Of a stretch of DNA of 64,000 nt, positions 24,812-32,095 are shown piece after piece. Within the stretch, counting starts at the first letter, position 1; each line of letters begins with the position of its first letter. The position numbers and the translations under genes were made by a program. The notes under the pieces were generated by a model that saw nothing but the letters and a program-made list of their open reading frames with translations, had not been told where the DNA came from and made no database searches. This DNA is from Candidatus Methanoplasma cognatum (lineage in GTDB: Archaea; Thermoplasmatota; Thermoplasmata; Methanomassiliicoccales; Methanomethylophilaceae), in assembly GCA_009777615.1 (NCBI GenBank), contig WRLM01000002.1, positions 1 to 64,000 of the forward strand, in the 5' to 3' direction.

Positions 24812-26134
24812 TCACGTACGTCTATTGACGAAATCAACGGGCTGCTCCGCCCCCATCCTCTTAAGCGGCTTCGACAGGTGCCTGCGGGCGGAGGTGGGCG
24901 GCTCGTACCAGCCCTCCCTCACCCATCTTACCGCTTTTTTGAGATCGGGTTGCTGGGCGGACGTATGGCATTTCCTGCAGCGGTACCCTTTGCCCCTGCC
25001 AAGGGATTCCATTGTCCTGCCGCAGCCGGCGCATATCGGATTTGAGATCTTCTCATACCTTTCGGCAACGGATATCACCCGCACCTTCTCCGCATTCAGG
25101 GTCCTCGGCTCCTCTCTGAGCTCCCCCATCACTCCAATTACATCCCCCTCCGAAAGATTATCGAAGAGATATCGGAACTCCTTTGAAGGCTCGTATGCCC
25201 CGACGGTCATCCTCCCGTTCACGGTATCGATCTCGGTAAGAACGTGCCCGCCTGCTATGTGCCCGCTTTTTACTACCTTCCCTTTGACATAGTATGAACG
25301 GTTCGGAATCAATTCCGCCTGGCCGCGCATTATGTGGTCGTCCGTTCCCTGATTAGTTAGGAAGATCATCCACCGTTCCGTCTCTTCGCTCCTGACCATA
25401 TCTTTTCCGATCATAAGGTCCGAGACATTGTCCCCCCGAAGCCCGTACATCACCGGACAGGGAGTCGCCGGTACCATCGCGACCTTCCGCGCCCTTTCCT
25501 CCCAGCTGTTGAATGTGGAAGGAATTGAGAGATCTACATCCCTGATGGAAAGCGAATCGAAGACGCGCTCGGTCCCCCATCTCTCCCTGGGTCTGTATGT
25601 CAGGATCTCATAGGTGCTGTCCCGAGGCCTCCACGCCATCCCGCAGACCGCACCGATCGTGCCGCGGCCGCATCCTCTCTCATATTTGAACGCGCCGATC
25701 CTCCGGATCTCATCATCGGCGGCGCTCTTGTCCAATATAGACCTGACCCCTTTCCAATACATCGACTGGGACGGCTTCTTTCTGCTCACCGCGAGTCCCG
25801 GGTCCGAATCTGGCTCGCTGTTCCTTTCTATCAGGGGGATGAGCCTTTCCAGGATCCGGTTCTCATCCGGTTCATACGCCGCGGCGCTTTTGAAACAGAA
25901 GATGTCCTCCCCCGCGACGCTGCCGGCATGTATCTTCTCGCCCCTGCCTCTTCCGAACCTCATCACAAGGGAGCCATTACCCCTGGTCTTCCAGGGGACC
26001 GCCGGATTGAGTCTGACGATGCGGGGATATCCTATCATATCCAGGTCCCCGCAGAGCTCGGATATCATCTCTGTTGCAAGGAATGTGGTGCAATTGCCGC
26101 TGACCGAATCCGTATCGTCGACCGCAATGTACAT
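24812..26134 (-). CDS. tiaS: tRNA(Ile2) 2-agmatinylcytidine synthetase TiaS
   Basis: 440 residues starting MYIAVDDTDSVSGNCTTFLA, the signature of TiaS. It continues with MIGYPRIVRLNPAVPWKTRGNGS, GCGRGTIGAVCGMAWRP, TYEILTYRPRERWGTERVFD and an OB-fold region (YYVKGKVVKSGHIAGGHVL). A C-terminal zinc ribbon (CAGCGRTM...YRCRKCH) ends the protein. TiaS attaches agmatine to the wobble cytidine of tRNA-Ile(CAU) so that it reads AUA codons and not AUG; it is specific to archaea and essential. It follows the small OB-like protein on the same strand, 29 bp away. Confidence 0.92.
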   Translation of the reverse strand: MYIAVDDTDSVSGNCTTFLATEMISELCGDLDMIGYPRIVRLNPAVPWKTRGNGSLVMRFGRGRGEKIHAGSVAGEDIFCFKSAAAYEPDENRILERLIPLIERNSEPDSDPGLAVSRKKPSQSMYWKGVRSILDKSAADDEIRRIGAFKYERGCGRGTIGAVCGMAWRPRDSTYEILTYRPRERWGTERVFDSLSIRDVDLSIPSTFNSWEERARKVAMVPATPCPVMYGLRGDNVSDLMIGKDMVRSEETERWMIFLTNQGTDDHIMRGQAELIPNRSYYVKGKVVKSGHIAGGHVLTEIDTVNGRMTVGAYEPSKEFRYLFDNLSEGDVIGVMGELREEPRTLNAEKVRVISVAERYEKISNPICAGCGRTMESLGRGKGYRCRKCHTSAQQPDLKKAVRWVREGWYEPPTSARRHLSKPLKRMGAEQPVDFVNRRT

Positions 26135-26163: not shown

Positions 26164-26457
26164 TCATTCTGAGACAATCCTCATTGAGTTGACGAAAAAT
26201 ATGCTTCCGTCATCCGAGGCCGTTCCTTTGATGGAATATACAAAATACTCTGTCGGTTCGGTGCGGGAGAAACATTTCATCTTACCGCCCCGGCTATCTT
26301 CCAGAAAGAAAGTGAAACCGTTCTGGGTCTCTTTTATTTCATAGGCTATGCCAACTATGCTATTGTCTTCCGGCTCCCCCCGGTCGACGAACACCGCGGC
26401 CAAGATAATAAAAGAGACTGAGATGCACAGCAATGAATACCTGTCAAATATTTTCAT
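26164..26457 (-). CDS. Small exported or membrane-anchored OB-like protein
   Basis: 97 residues. An N-terminal hydrophobic stretch (about 7-25, SLLCISVSFIILAAVFV) acts as a signal or anchor; the rest is beta-rich with SIVGIAYEIKETQNGFTFFLEDSRGGKMKCF and TEYFVYSIKGTASDDGSIFFVNSM, which resembles a short OB-fold (compare the IIGMIYEKKETKNGHTTLLLED stretch in the PolD small subunit at 42.3 kb). An OB domain bound for the cell exterior is unusual; the function is unknown. It precedes tiaS and borders the origin region. Confidence 0.6.
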   Translation of the reverse strand: MKIFDRYSLLCISVSFIILAAVFVDRGEPEDNSIVGIAYEIKETQNGFTFFLEDSRGGKMKCFSRTEPTEYFVYSIKGTASDDGSIFFVNSMRIVSE

Positions 26458-26518
26458 ACTGTGATTATATTCCCTGTGGATTTTAAGATTGTAATTACAG
26501 TTATATTACATTCTCCGA

Positions 26519-26547
26519 ACGCCCCCGCCCCCCTATTTCCAGTGGAA
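26519..26547 (-). promoter_or_regulatory. Origin recognition box (ORB)-like element 1
   Basis: Read on the minus strand it is TTCCACTGGAAATAGGGG followed by GGCGGGGGCGT. The TNCASTGGAAA core plus a downstream G-string is the archaeal ORB pattern bound by Orc1/Cdc6. All 29 nt recur exactly, inverted, at 28087-28115. Confidence 0.7.
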
Positions 26548-26608
26548 CATCTTTTGAATGTCAAAGTTAGATCAGTATATCAAAATTAAGAAGAGGTTTG
26601 TTTTCTTT

Positions 26609-26695
26609 TCAGAAAAATGTACCTATTGCCCAGATAAGTAATATGAATGCGGCTATGCCGAGAATGCAAGCGCCTATGACCAACCATCCTTTCAT
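26609..26695 (-). CDS. 28-residue single-helix membrane protein
   Basis: A very short gene: ATG at 26695, stop at 26611-26609, product MKGWLVIGACILGIAAFILL plus IWAIGTFF. One transmembrane helix fills nearly the whole chain. Support for translation is unusually good for its size: AAAAGGAG lies 8 nt before the ATG and a TATA-like GAAAATATAAC just upstream of that. The function is unknown. It lies inside the proposed origin between the ORB and orc1 and is on the opposite strand to orc1. Confidence 0.6.
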   Translation of the reverse strand: MKGWLVIGACILGIAAFILLIWAIGTFF

Positions 26696-26839
26696 CTGAA
26701 TTCTCCTTTTTTAAGTTATATTTTCACCTAATACAATCTACCTATAAATTAACATATACTAAGGTTCCGGAAACTCTCAGAAGAAACTATTATAACAGCC
26801 TTCTTTGTATGTAGTAGGGCTTTGGGGGAGAGGATGTAA

Positions 26840-28066
26840 ATGGGGATATTCGACGATTCAAAAAACAAAAGGAACGTTCTCATAAAGGACAGAAGCATCC
26901 TTCAGACAACGTACATACCTGATCAGCTTCCCCACAGAGAGAATGAGATAAGCAATATTGTCGATATAATAACCCCTTCACTCTATAAGAACAGACCATC
27001 CAACATATTCCTTACGGGGAAGACCGGGACAGGAAAAACGGCAGTTCTGCATTATATCGGAAAAGAATTGAAGAAAGCTGATCCTGAAGAAGAAAATTGC
27101 AGTTTTGTCTATGTGAATTGTGAGATCGTTGACAATTCATATGCAATCCTTTTCAATATTTCCAATCAGATAATCAAAGACCAGAATAATAGGATACCTT
27201 TCACAGGATGGAGTTTGGATAGGGTCTATGATACAATAATACAATACGTTGATGAACGTAATAAAGTGCTGATAATTGTTTTAGATGAGATAGACAGGGT
27301 CCTTCAGAAAAGCGGGGATGATATATTCTATTTCCTGACAACAATGAATGAAGTACTAAAGAATTCAAAGATATCAATAATCGGAGTTACTAACAATACA
27401 AAATTCATGGAACTTATATCTCCGAAGATAAAAAGCAGACTTGGGGAAGAGAAAATAGTATTCTCCCCATATAATGCAGAACAGTTACAAGATATTCTTA
27501 AAGGAAGGGCCAAACTCGCGTTTGAACCGGGAGTAATGGAGGATGGAGTGATCCCGTATTGCGCAGCGTTATCGGCTCAGGATTCCGGCGACGCAAGAAA
27601 AGCATTGGATCTTCTCAGAGTCTCGGCGGAGATCGCTGAAAGAAATGGGGATATATCCATTACGGAAGCTCATGTCAAATCCGCAAGGAACAGAATAGAG
27701 ATGGATGCTGTGGTGGAAGTGATAAAGACACTCCCCGCTCAGTCAAAGATAGTATTGAGAAGTATAATAGAGAATCATGAAAGAAAGGATACGGCTGTGA
27801 TAACAGGCGATGTCTATTCTGTCTATAAGGAAATATGTAATATATTGAGCTTCAACACCTTAAAAGAAAAAAGGGTTGCGGATCTTATATCTGAGTTGGA
27901 TATGCTTGGAATAATACACGCAAGGGTCAAGTCTTTCGGAAGGAACGGAAGGACCAGGGAGATAGAGCTCAACATCAATAAAGAAATTATTGAATTCATA
28001 ATGAAAGACGAGCTTTTCGAGCCATTGCTGAAACATAAACAGATCAAACAGACCAAGCTATTGTGA
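26840..28066 (+). CDS. Origin recognition protein Orc1/Cdc6
   Basis: 408 residues, with an ATG preceded by GGGGGAGAGGATGTAA. AAA+ ATPase core: Walker A GKTGTGKT (60-67), Walker B IIVLDEIDRV (about 144-153), sensor 1 IIGVTNN, and an arginine-finger region KSRLGEE. The helical lid has DSGDARKALDLLR, and a C-terminal winged helix (about 290-390) carries the DNA-binding wing. It recognises ORBs and loads MCM. The gene is distinctly more A+T-rich, with A/T-ending codons, than most genes around it; this could reflect an origin-linked paralogue or later acquisition. It is convergent with the signal peptidase gene, 2 bp apart. ORB-like boxes lie on both sides. Confidence 0.93.
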   Translation: MGIFDDSKNKRNVLIKDRSILQTTYIPDQLPHRENEISNIVDIITPSLYKNRPSNIFLTGKTGTGKTAVLHYIGKELKKADPEEENCSFVYVNCEIVDNSYAILFNISNQIIKDQNNRIPFTGWSLDRVYDTIIQYVDERNKVLIIVLDEIDRVLQKSGDDIFYFLTTMNEVLKNSKISIIGVTNNTKFMELISPKIKSRLGEEKIVFSPYNAEQLQDILKGRAKLAFEPGVMEDGVIPYCAALSAQDSGDARKALDLLRVSAEIAERNGDISITEAHVKSARNRIEMDAVVEVIKTLPAQSKIVLRSIIENHERKDTAVITGDVYSVYKEICNILSFNTLKEKRVADLISELDMLGIIHARVKSFGRNGRTREIELNINKEIIEFIMKDELFEPLLKHKQIKQTKLL

Positions 28067-28068
28067 TG

Positions 28069-28935
28069 TTATTCATCATCTTCATCTTCCACTGGAAATA
28101 GGGGGGCGGGGGCGTATAGTTCTTCGTTCATTTCTTTTCTGTATTTCCAGAAAAATCTGTAATCAAAAAGGAAACTTATACCGATAATAAGGAACAATAC
28201 AAGCAGAGAGGCGGCGGTGAGGTTGGGTATCGTATTGGGAACCCATCTTTCCAGAGCATCTTTATTATCATTTAAGATCATTTTGAACGCCCCCACCCAA
28301 GGCACCTCTATCCATGCGACCGATCTTATCTGTTCGTATGATATCAGGCCGTTCACCCCGCTTACGCTGGCCGGCTGGTCGAATCCCGGGTTGTTGTCCC
28401 CCATAGTAATATATCCGCTGGCTGGTTTGACGCTCACAAGCGTGTTTAGATCCAAGGCAGCATATATCGTGTTGGTGTAACCCATATTCGTCAAAGAAAG
28501 CCACCCGGACAGTTTATTGTAATCATCACCGCTTGCGCAGGACCAGAGATCCGAGGGGTAGTCTTTCAGACTGGGGGCGCTCCAGGTGCCGTCGCCGTTA
28601 TAATCGAGCCAGAGGATGGCCCTATGTATTATGGGATTGCCGGTATCCCGGCCGTAGATTATGACATCGCCGTAATTGCCGAACTTCTTGTATCCTGTTT
28701 TGTAACCGTCGACGAATGTCCGGATATCGACCTTATCTTTACTCTTAAGGATGACCACGTCCCCGGTGTCAATGATACCGATCTCCGACCCTATCCCGTG
28801 CTGCATGCTTCCGGATTCGATGACCGTCTGAAAAGGGCTGACGCCCGAGGCCGTGGAGACGCCGACGAAAGCGACGGCTACGATGATGACCGCGGCGATG
28901 ACCACGATTACTGCATGCTTGACATCCTTGTCCAC
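28069..28935 (-). CDS. Signal peptidase I of the archaeal/ER (S26B, Sec11-like) type
   Basis: 288 residues. An N-terminal membrane anchor (about 8-28) precedes the catalytic Ser43 in ESGSMQHG. The second catalytic residue is His104 (GNPIIHRAI), as in Sec11-type enzymes, which use His where bacterial enzymes use Lys. GYITMGDNNPGFD supplies the Asp residues (Asp180, Asp186). A second transmembrane helix (about 240-262) and an acidic tail follow. The enzyme removes signal peptides at the outer membrane face, relevant to the many exported proteins nearby. The last 15 codons contain the second ORB-like element. Its promoter, ATTATTATTATATATTG, lies around 28950-28970. Confidence 0.88.
   Translation of the reverse strand: MDKDVKHAVIVVIAAVIIVAVAFVGVSTASGVSPFQTVIESGSMQHGIGSEIGIIDTGDVVILKSKDKVDIRTFVDGYKTGYKKFGNYGDVIIYGRDTGNPIIHRAILWLDYNGDGTWSAPSLKDYPSDLWSCASGDDYNKLSGWLSLTNMGYTNTIYAALDLNTLVSVKPASGYITMGDNNPGFDQPASVSGVNGLISYEQIRSVAWIEVPWVGAFKMILNDNKDALERWVPNTIPNLTAASLLVLFLIIGISFLFDYRFFWKYRKEMNEELYAPAPLFPVEDEDDE
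28087..28115 (+). promoter_or_regulatory. ORB-like element 2, inside the signal peptidase coding end
   Basis: TTCCACTGGAAATAGGGG plus GGCGGGGGCGT on the plus strand, identical over 29 nt to the inverse of 26519-26547. It lies in the codons for YAPAPLFPVE of the signal peptidase, so the sequence does double duty. The two boxes point away from each other across orc1. Confidence 0.7.
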
Positions 28936-29137: not shown

Positions 29138-32095
29138 TTATCCTCCGGTTGCGTATTTCACTATGATCGCTTCTAGTGAGCCATTTCCTGCAATACCTGT
29201 CCAATCGCCGCTGTCAAAGGACCCCGGACTTGAAAACCCCACAGCGACAATGCCGTCGGACACGGCAGTCACCGATAAAAATTCATCCCGACTGACACCG
29301 CCGAAGTTCTCCTTCCACACGACATCGCCGTTATCATCATATTTAACGATAATTGCATTATATATGCCTCCAATGCCCGCCCAGTCGCCATTGATTAATG
29401 TTTGTGAATACCCAACGGCGACAACGCCATCAGACACTGCCGTCACTTCGTAATAATAATCGGCACCGGACCCGCCGAAGTTCTTCGCCCAAACCACGTC
29501 GCCGTTGTTGTCATACTTCACGATGAATGCATCGTAACTACCCTTCCCCGCAACGTTCGTCCAATCTCCGTTACCGAAGGACCCTGGATACGAGGACCCT
29601 GTGGCGATAACGCCGTCGGATACCGTCGTCACTGAGTAATAATAGTCATTGTCCGACCCGCCGAAGCTCTTCGCCCACACCACGTCGCCGTTGTTGTCAT
29701 ACTTCACGATGATCGCATCAACGCCGCCTTTTCCCGCGACGCTGGTCCAATCGCCATTGCCGAAGGAACTGTTGTCTGAATACCCCACGGCGACAAATCC
29801 GCCGGATACCGCCGTTACAGATTCATAATAATCGTAGCCGGACCCGCCGAAGTTATTCTTCCATATCACATCGCCATTGTTGTCAAACTTCACGATGAAC
29901 GCATCGTAGCCGCCCTTCCACGTGAGGCCGGTCCAATCTCCGTTGCCGAATCCGTAAGAATACCCCACGGCGACAAACCCGCCGGGAACCGTTATCACGG
30001 AATTACAGTAATCACTGTCCGATCCGCCGAAGTTCTTCGCCCAAACCACGTCGCCGTTGTTGTCATACTTCACGATGATTGCATCAGTGTGGCCTTTCCC
30101 CGCGACACCCGCCCAGTCGCCGCTGCCGAATGAACCAGGATCCGAATGCCCCACGGCGATAACGCCATCAGATACCGCAGTCACTGCATAATAGGAGTCA
30201 TTTCCAGGCCCGCCGAAGTTATTCTTCCACACCACATCGCCGTTGTTGTCATACTTCACGATGATCGCATCGTAACTACCATTCCCCGTGGCATCTGCCC
30301 AGTCACCGCTGCCGAATGCGCTTGAACGCCCAACGGCGACGATGCCATCGGATACAGTAGTTACTGACTCATAATAGTCCATACCATGCCCGCCAAAGTT
30401 CCATTTGCCCTCGATGGGAATCGTAACAACGCCCGCCACGCTTATGGTGAAGTCCTTTGTGAAGTTTACTCCAAGCGCGGAGCCGTTTGCGATTGTCGCC
30501 GTCACGACAACTGTGCCTGATGCGGCTGCGGATAACACATTTCCGCTGATGGAGGCACCAGTCATTCCCGCATCCTTAACAGACCATACTATGGTCTGGT
30601 TCGTAGCGTTGGATGGAACAACTGTTCCCGCTAGGGTCAATGGTGTTCCGACCGTGGCTGTCGAAGGCACCCCGGTTATGTCCGTGACAGGAACCAGAAT
30701 AGTTGCACTATACTTCACGACGATTGCATCCTGGACGCCATTTCCTGCAACACCTGCCCAATCGCCGTTGCCGAAGGACCCCGGACTTGAAAACCCAACA
30801 GCGACAACGCTGTCAGGCACCGCTGTCACAGAGAAATAATGGTCCTCTGAAGATCCGCCGAAGTTCTTCGCCCACACAACGTCGCCGTTGTTGTCATACT
30901 TCACGATGATCGCATCTTTGTCGCCTTTTCCCGTAACGCTGGCCAAGTCACCGCTACCGAATGATTCAGGTTGTGAATACCCCACGGCGACAATGCCGTC
31001 AGGCACTGCCGTCACAGATTCAAAGTAATCGATGCCAGATCCGCCGAAGTTCTTCGCCCAAACCACGTCGCCGTTGTTGTCATACTTCACGATGATCGCA
31101 TCTTTGTCGCCTTTTCCCGTAACGCTGGCCAAGTCACCGCTACCGAATGAATCAGGATATGCTTGTCCCACGGCGACAAAGCCGCCAGGTACTGCCGTCA
31201 CAGATTCAAAAGACTCTGCACTAGCTCCGCCGAAGTTCTTCTTCCACACAACGTCGCCGTTGTTGTCATACTTCACGACGATTGCATCATTGCTACCTTT
31301 TCCGGTCACACCTGACCAATCGCCGACGCCGAAGGACCCCTGACTTGAATACCCAACAGCAACAACGCCGCCAGGTACTGCCGTCACCGAGTAATACATG
31401 TTATTCTTCATGTCGCCGGAGTTCTTCGCCCACACAACGTCGCCGTTGTTGTCATACTTCACGATGATTCCGTCAACGTTGCCCTTGCTCGCGACGCCTG
31501 CCCAATCGCCGTTGCCGAACGAATTTCCACTCGAATATCCCACGGCGACAACGCCGTCAGACACCGCTACCACAGAGTAATAGCGATCATCATGAGATCC
31601 GCCGAAGTTCTTCGCCCACACCACGTCGCCGTTGTTGTCATACTTCACGACGATCGCGTCAACGTTGCCCTTGCCGGTCACGCCCGCCCAATCGCCGTTG
31701 CCGAATGAATTTCCACTTGAGTATCCCACGGCGACAAAGCCGTCGGATACCGCGGTCACAGATTCAAAGTAATCGGTGCCAGATCCGCCGAAGTTCTTCG
31801 CCCACACAACGTCGTCGTCGTTGTCATACTTCACGATGGTCGCGTCAATGTCACCCTTGCCGGTCACGCCCGCCCAATCGCCGTTGCCGAATGCATATGT
31901 GTGTCCCACAGCGACAAACCCATCAGATGCTGCTGTTACTGATTTATAAAAATCATAACTTGACCCGCCAAAATTTTGTGCGTTTATTTCGAGATCGTTA
32001 CCATCTCCATCCGCTGAAAAAGCGATGGCAGGTATGGTAACAACCACTAATGCCAATAGCACTGTAAGTGCCAAAATACCCTTTTTGTTTTTCAT
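29138..32095 (-). CDS. Exported protein of 7 + 7 propeller-type repeats around an Ig-like domain
   Basis: 985 residues with an AAGGAGGGGG ribosome site before the ATG and a signal peptide (about 1-28, GILALTVLLALVVVTIPAIA). Fourteen repeats of about 60-65 residues follow the pattern NFGGSGxDYYxSVTAVSDG, then AVGYS...FGNGDWAGVTGKG, then DAIIVKYDNNGDVVW. I count seven before and seven after a single bacterial-Ig-like (Big-type) domain at about residues 480-570 (VPVTDITGVPSTATVGTPL, then WSVKDAG). Seven blades each would close two beta-propellers (inference). A C-terminal anchor is not visible, so it is probably secreted or bound through other surface proteins. Repeats are very similar at the DNA level, which predicts copy-number change. 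Confidence 0.85.
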   Translation of the reverse strand: MKNKKGILALTVLLALVVVTIPAIAFSADGDGNDLEINAQNFGGSSYDFYKSVTAASDGFVAVGHTYAFGNGDWAGVTGKGDIDATIVKYDNDDDVVWAKNFGGSGTDYFESVTAVSDGFVAVGYSSGNSFGNGDWAGVTGKGNVDAIVVKYDNNGDVVWAKNFGGSHDDRYYSVVAVSDGVVAVGYSSGNSFGNGDWAGVASKGNVDGIIVKYDNNGDVVWAKNSGDMKNNMYYSVTAVPGGVVAVGYSSQGSFGVGDWSGVTGKGSNDAIVVKYDNNGDVVWKKNFGGASAESFESVTAVPGGFVAVGQAYPDSFGSGDLASVTGKGDKDAIIVKYDNNGDVVWAKNFGGSGIDYFESVTAVPDGIVAVGYSQPESFGSGDLASVTGKGDKDAIIVKYDNNGDVVWAKNFGGSSEDHYFSVTAVPDSVVAVGFSSPGSFGNGDWAGVAGNGVQDAIVVKYSATILVPVTDITGVPSTATVGTPLTLAGTVVPSNATNQTIVWSVKDAGMTGASISGNVLSAAASGTVVVTATIANGSALGVNFTKDFTISVAGVVTIPIEGKWNFGGHGMDYYESVTTVSDGIVAVGRSSAFGSGDWADATGNGSYDAIIVKYDNNGDVVWKNNFGGPGNDSYYAVTAVSDGVIAVGHSDPGSFGSGDWAGVAGKGHTDAIIVKYDNNGDVVWAKNFGGSDSDYCNSVITVPGGFVAVGYSYGFGNGDWTGLTWKGGYDAFIVKFDNNGDVIWKNNFGGSGYDYYESVTAVSGGFVAVGYSDNSSFGNGDWTSVAGKGGVDAIIVKYDNNGDVVWAKSFGGSDNDYYYSVTTVSDGVIATGSSYPGSFGNGDWTNVAGKGSYDAFIVKYDNNGDVVWAKNFGGSGADYYYEVTAVSDGVVAVGYSQTLINGDWAGIGGIYNAIIVKYDDNGDVVWKENFGGVSRDEFLSVTAVSDGIVAVGFSSPGSFDSGDWTGIAGNGSLEAIIVKYATGG
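29170..32000 (-). repeat. Tandem repeat tract of about 190-bp units in the propeller gene
   Basis: Units are nearly identical over long stretches; for example CCGTTGTTGTCATACTTCAC recurs in most units on the plus strand. The array is split by the Ig-like domain coding segment (about 30410-30700). High DNA identity between units suggests ongoing homogenisation or slippage. Confidence 0.8.

Follow-up and report, generated by a model that had tools for sequence, protein, structure and literature searches.

The orc1/cdc6 gene of Candidatus Methanoplasma cognatum, a methanogenic archaeon of gut type, lies between two copies of one archaeal origin recognition box (ORB). This raises the question of whether the locus is the chromosomal replication origin, and how an origin is built with its initiator gene inside. 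The window, meaning the whole stretch of DNA analysed, comprises 64,000 nucleotides of contig WRLM01000002.1. ORB 1 (29 bp, 26519–26547, minus strand) has its core facing orc1 and its G-string outward, and is conserved in the family. ORB 2 (29 bp, 28087–28115, plus strand) is its exact inverted copy and lies in the 3′ end of a signal-peptidase-like ORF, which confirms the exact inverted pair on both sides of orc1 described in the initial annotation. The shared 29-mer, TTCCACTGGAAATAGGGGGGCGGGGGCGT, occurs at just these two sites in the 1,619,733-base (1.62-Mb) genome. Including their flanks, the inverted arms are 32 nt long, 97% identical, and 1533 nt apart. The 18-nt ORB core, with up to three mismatches, occurs twice in the 64-kb window against 0.03 occurrences expected. 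Both boxes fit the published consensus TTCCASTGGAAA followed by a G-string, and their inverted orientation flanks AT-rich DNA in an interval of 1539 bp that contains genes. A third copy of the 29-mer was found nowhere in the genome at up to three mismatches, nor with a looser ORB pattern. The scattered copies that would have spoken against an origin are thus ruled out. Weak repeat families in the window (D1–D12) were taken as chance. A block immediately outside ORB 1, ATTACAGTTATATTAC (26494–26509), is kept among congeners and is perhaps the promoter of the gene at 26164–26457.

On sequence grounds, the chromosome very probably has its single replication origin at this locus. The looser pattern was run over nine genomes of the family that are complete or nearly so, the host's among them, and ORB matches stand beside orc1 alone: two per genome, and three in one. 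GC skew was followed along the window's contig and in sampled stretches of two complete relatives. On the contig, the cumulative curve bottoms out at 32.2 kb, about 4 kb from orc1, and then rises as far as about 198 kb. The same-genus relative G004 is a complete genome in one contig, with orc1 beginning at base 101; after detrending, its sampled skew is lowest at about 1,484 kb out of 1,488.7 kb. In the other relative, G023, the sampled skew switches sign at orc1. The skews in these genomes are weak and partly follow gene direction. A minimum at or near orc1, as expected of an archaeal oriC1-type origin, is therefore read from a weak signal that was sampled in the relatives; together with the unscattered 29-mer, it supports the origin that the initial annotation had placed at orc1. 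A second, divergent orc1/cdc6 paralogue (25% identity) lies on another contig of the genome (C3, about 171835–172923, minus strand) and is present in most family genomes. The 10 kb around it contain no ORB, and a second orc1 without an ORB is also reported for relatives (PMC4153887).

The initiator gene (26840–28066, plus strand) is of the Orc1-1 (Cdc6-1) type. Its product contains AAA+, Cdc6 lid, and Cdc6_C (winged-helix) domains and aligns over its full length with the Cdc6-1 chain of Sulfolobus (PDB 2qby_A) and with an Aeropyrum chain (2v1u_A). An initiator gene of the expected type is thus adjacent to the boxes. The inter-ORB segment (26548–28086) is 1539 bp long with 62% AT, and it is this segment that lies reversed in six relatives. 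The part between ORB 1 and orc1 (26548–26839) reaches 65% AT, compared to 47% in the window, in agreement with the AT-rich stretch noticed earlier. Within it, the divergent intergenic region at 26696–26839 comprises conserved CTATAAA and TTATAACA blocks and one of the window's ten least stable 100-bp stretches, and is a candidate unwinding and promoter region. A short gene-free unwinding element between the boxes, which is usual though not universally required, is absent, as orc1 and a small ORF lie inside. The locus is thus a variant of the oriC1 type and not a plain member. A titration cluster of ORBs like oriC2D was likewise not found, the window having one downstream box and the relatives one to two.

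The small ORF (26609–26695, minus strand) encodes a 28-aa micropeptide with a single transmembrane segment, MKGWLVIGACILGIAAFILLIWAIGTFF. It is divergent from orc1 and conserved across the clade in which boxes flank orc1. Most genomes of this clade have a hydrophobic ORF of 24–33 aa (MKGWLVIGACILGI...) in the same divergent position, and it turns together with orc1 in the genomes where the segment is flipped. Differences at the three codon positions are 0.30, 0.21, and 0.61, which is the signature of a coding sequence. Near orc1 in the clade with direct-repeat boxes, a search for homologues gave chance-like matches alone.

Outside ORB 1 lie a conserved 97-aa protein with no family assigned (26164–26457, minus strand) and tiaS (24812–26134, minus strand), and both serve as orientation markers. 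On the other side, the signal-peptidase-like ORF (28069–28935, minus strand) is weakly identified, its match to TIGR02228 falling below the NCBIfam cut-off. Beyond it, a 985-aa protein (29138–32095, minus strand) contains repeated NFGGSxxDxxxSVTAVSDGxVAVGY units and has no credible Pfam family. Gene directions had been said to diverge at the locus. The left-hand genes are indeed mostly on the minus strand, but the signal-peptidase-like and 985-aa ORFs on the right are also minus, and plus-strand genes begin only at about 32.3 kb. Rfam gave no match across 20–36 kb of the window.

The C-terminal codons of the signal-peptidase-like ORF read through ORB 2 as YAPAPLFPVE, and five codons then lead to the stop, so the box is in the final codons of this gene as first described. 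The suggestion that such a match in coding DNA points to selection on the DNA itself is borne out by the 3′ end of the gene in relatives. The reading frame passes through the box in 14 congeners, in which fourfold third positions are 85% identical in the box codons versus 35% in the rest of the gene. By 10-codon windows, conservation of the gene peaks over the box. Other genera have the box outside the gene, in non-coding DNA, and it is still conserved there.

The architecture was compared in almost all family genomes that yielded an orc1 region and in 20 genomes of sister families. Nearly all family members have one box on the minus strand about 256–473 bp upstream of orc1 and one on the plus strand downstream, with the cores inward and the G-strings outward. 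The downstream box is mostly 5–47 bp past the orc1 stop, and a minority have it about 185 bp away or farther. In the sister families, as in g9 and g14, which are basal genera, the boxes are direct repeats that precede orc1, typically near −185 and −42. On the orc1 tree, the flanking arrangement needs one change, a single gain. In genus g12, the downstream box is followed at about 40–70 bp by a second box in tandem (five loci). Whole genera have CACCGG, CATCGG, or CACAGG in place of the palindromic core CASTGG, and the change usually affects both boxes (nine loci).

The genes around the origin keep a conserved order: prefoldin, FtsY, peptidase, thiolase, TiaS, the 26164 gene, [orc1], signal peptidase, dCMP deaminase, and ATPase subunit. 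In six genomes (G008, G013, G023, G038, G047, and G048), the orc1 segment alone is reversed against these neighbours. These are six of the 80 oriented genomes of the flanking clade, compared to none of 23 with direct repeats, and the orc1 tree of the 103 oriented genomes requires at least five independent flips. As in invertible elements, a segment bounded by inverted repeats thus occurs in both orientations, across different genomes. No dedicated recombinase was identified among the genes adjacent to orc1. An enclosed gene that has turned at least five times indicates that its direction relative to the neighbours is evidently unconstrained, while the box pair is constrained.

The breakpoints of the flips coincide with the boxes wherever they can be placed, which is in three events. 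In G038, the sequence beyond the downstream box resembles what lies beyond the upstream box in unflipped congeners (z 9.7 and 7.5), whereas the match to their downstream side is 0.8, and the inner flank stays with orc1 (z 7.0 and 5.2). G008 and G047 have the same pattern. Since outer flanks are exchanged (z=9.7 versus 0.8 at locus L164, up to 9.9 at L096, and up to 4.7 at L039) and inner flanks are kept, the breakpoints of these three genomes fall in the boxes. The other two of the five events (g12 and g13) have breakpoints that only gene order and spacing locate. In g12 (G023 and G048), the spacing to the 26164 gene, judged by eye, suggests a breakpoint at the second, outer downstream box. 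For G013, the evidence is gene order alone. The G038 draft contains two Orc1-1 genes of different genera, on contigs C23 and C38, so contamination is probable; the one on C23 clusters with its genus.

The two boxes of a genome are also more alike than expected. Inverted pairs differ at 1.17 of 26 positions, versus 2.29 when partners are shuffled within genera (0 of 5000 shuffles as low), a shuffling that does not fully remove relatedness, and 3.38 when they are shuffled over all genomes. This homogenisation spans exactly positions 1–29 and is gone from position 30 onward. Direct pairs of the other clade have 5.05 mismatches versus 5.68 when shuffled (76 of 5000 as low), which means that their boxes are almost independent.

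The flanking clade also has an AT shift in the initiator gene. The GC3 of orc1 minus that of neighbouring genes is −0.127 in the flanking clade (negative in 62 of 69), whereas the direct clade has a difference of 0.000 (sd 0.028). The deficit is largest within orc1 (−0.13 to −0.19) and weakens with distance, with −0.12 in the 26164 gene, −0.10 in the signal-peptidase tail, and −0.04 at the start of TiaS. The idea of a shift that ends sharply at the boxes was dropped because this graded profile reaches the signal peptidase and the 26164 gene. The shift would fit an interval used for unwinding or helicase loading, or a mutational effect of that process. Its association with the architecture spans one evolutionary transition and is thus suggestive.

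These observations are best read, with a probability of roughly 0.78, as an oriC1-type origin whose ORBs would bind Orc1-1 and have MCM loaded between them, and in which recombination between the boxes would flip the orc1 segment and homogenise the boxes. In Sulfolobus, a single Orc1-1 occupies each ORB in a polar fashion, the DUE lies between two inverted ORBs, neither of which is dispensable, and MCM is brought in between the two (PMC12141716). By analogy, each ORB here would bind Orc1-1, and the two inverted sites would direct MCM onto the intervening DNA, from which forks would depart both ways. Orc1 binding, MCM loading, and initiation would then all take place as in Sulfolobus, though within 1.5 kb that hold the initiator and micropeptide genes and are AT-rich overall, not within a short unwinding element. 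The near-perfect inverted boxes would occasionally recombine, the orc1 segment would flip, and an equivalent origin would be restored, while recombination or conversion would keep both boxes identical. Such exchange between inverted copies would explain the homogenisation and the flips together, and co-evolution with Orc1 may still play a part. A more speculative and rather doubtful extension is that the ORBs double as recombination sites, which would make the initiator cassette invertible; it might flip in living populations, and what happens at the origin might trigger this, so that the origin rearranges yet works.

Co-evolution could instead account for all of the box identity, both sites following the DNA contacts of Orc1 and the flips being ordinary, rare, tolerated inversions. 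Core changes such as TTGCAG, CACCGG, and CTCCAG, each common to both boxes of a lineage, and the resemblance of the conserved columns to protein contacts fit this account. It is nevertheless considered unlikely, as direct-repeat pairs are equally bound to co-evolve with Orc1 and are hardly homogenised, spacer positions 14–16 and 21 agree within a genome although they are the most variable between species, and flip breakpoints fall in boxes. The flipped arrangement would need no biological explanation if the 29-bp inverted repeat had misled assembly, and five of the six flipped loci do come from drafts. However, G023 is one contig of 1,937,883 bases that matches the finished ISO4-H5 genome (1,937,882 bp, PMC5011839), whose gaps were closed via PCR and Sanger sequencing, so that at least this flip is not a draft artefact. 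The sister genome G048 has the same flip independently, and ordinary reads exceed 29 bp. An artefact is thus very improbable.

The function of the boxes may also be divided differently. The origin could consist of the upstream box and the AT-rich region, with the downstream box regulatory, acting through titration of Orc1 or control of orc1. The clearly AT-rich intergenic region does sit upstream, and in Haloarcula hispanica the oriC2D cluster, located downstream of cdc6E, is a negative regulator of oriC2 that probably works through titration (PMC3936714). That cluster has 11 ORBs versus one here, and the two boxes of this locus are equally conserved, mutually homogenised, and inverted, which is the expectation for equal partners; a flip also exchanges their outer neighbours with no visible consequence. 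A regulatory downstream box is therefore judged improbable. Boxes serving orc1 and the adjacent genes as transcriptional operators, with the origin elsewhere, would suit their location near promoters or gene ends, but are scarcely credible when the genome has no further ORB and the skew turns at orc1. In addition, two convergent genes have their 3′ ends at the downstream box, which is poorly placed for an operator, and the orc1 paralogue has no box in the surrounding 10 kb.

The boxes changed just once from direct and upstream to inverted and flanking, and the AT shift of orc1 and homogenisation followed, which amounts to a natural experiment on the role of inverted ORBs. The permissible distance between inverted ORBs and the point of initiation between them can thereby be tested directly in relatives that are in culture, for example ISO4-H5.

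ORBs that flank orc1 are already known from Ca. Methanomethylophilus alvus (2014, PMC4153887) and occasionally from haloarchaea (PMC3528665). The literature searched, which included few subscription papers, contains no report of repeated orc1 inversion at the boxes, of homogenisation over 29 bp in inverted pairs only, of an AT shift specific to the clade, or of the micropeptide. In the portions consulted of the two relevant papers, the predicted origin of Ca. M. alvus has ORBs on both sides of orc1/cdc6.1 (Borrel 2014, PMC4153887), and those of alvus and ISO4-H5 share the same consensus with an extra G-string and a second orc1 without an ORB (PMC4153887, PMC5011839). The same portions do not mention segment inversion, homogenisation, a micropeptide, or an AT shift, and that of the ISO4-H5 paper does not mention an upstream inverted box or the flipped orientation (PMC5011839).

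Sulfolobales oriC1 (ORB2-DUE-ORB3) resembles the present locus in its inverted ORBs with G-strings, its adjacent gene of the Orc1-1 type, and the AT-rich DNA between the boxes. However, its interval is about 130 bp and gene-free, whereas here 1539 bp, about ten times as much, contain orc1 and the micropeptide gene. Haloarcula hispanica oriC1 also has inverted ORBs with extended G-strings, apparently at the outer ends as here, to judge by the mutated letters given in a figure legend (PMC3936714), but its boxes enclose an AT-rich intergenic region alone, whereas orc1 is enclosed here. The oriC2/oriC2D system of the same species is similar in that ORBs can lie downstream of a cdc6 gene; its 11 downstream boxes are repressive, in contrast to the one downstream box here. 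Haloarchaeal origins can have ORBs in both intergenic regions around cdc6, as here, but there the arrangement is occasional and occurs in various replicons (PMC3528665), whereas the present one is a fixed two-box layout of almost the whole family.
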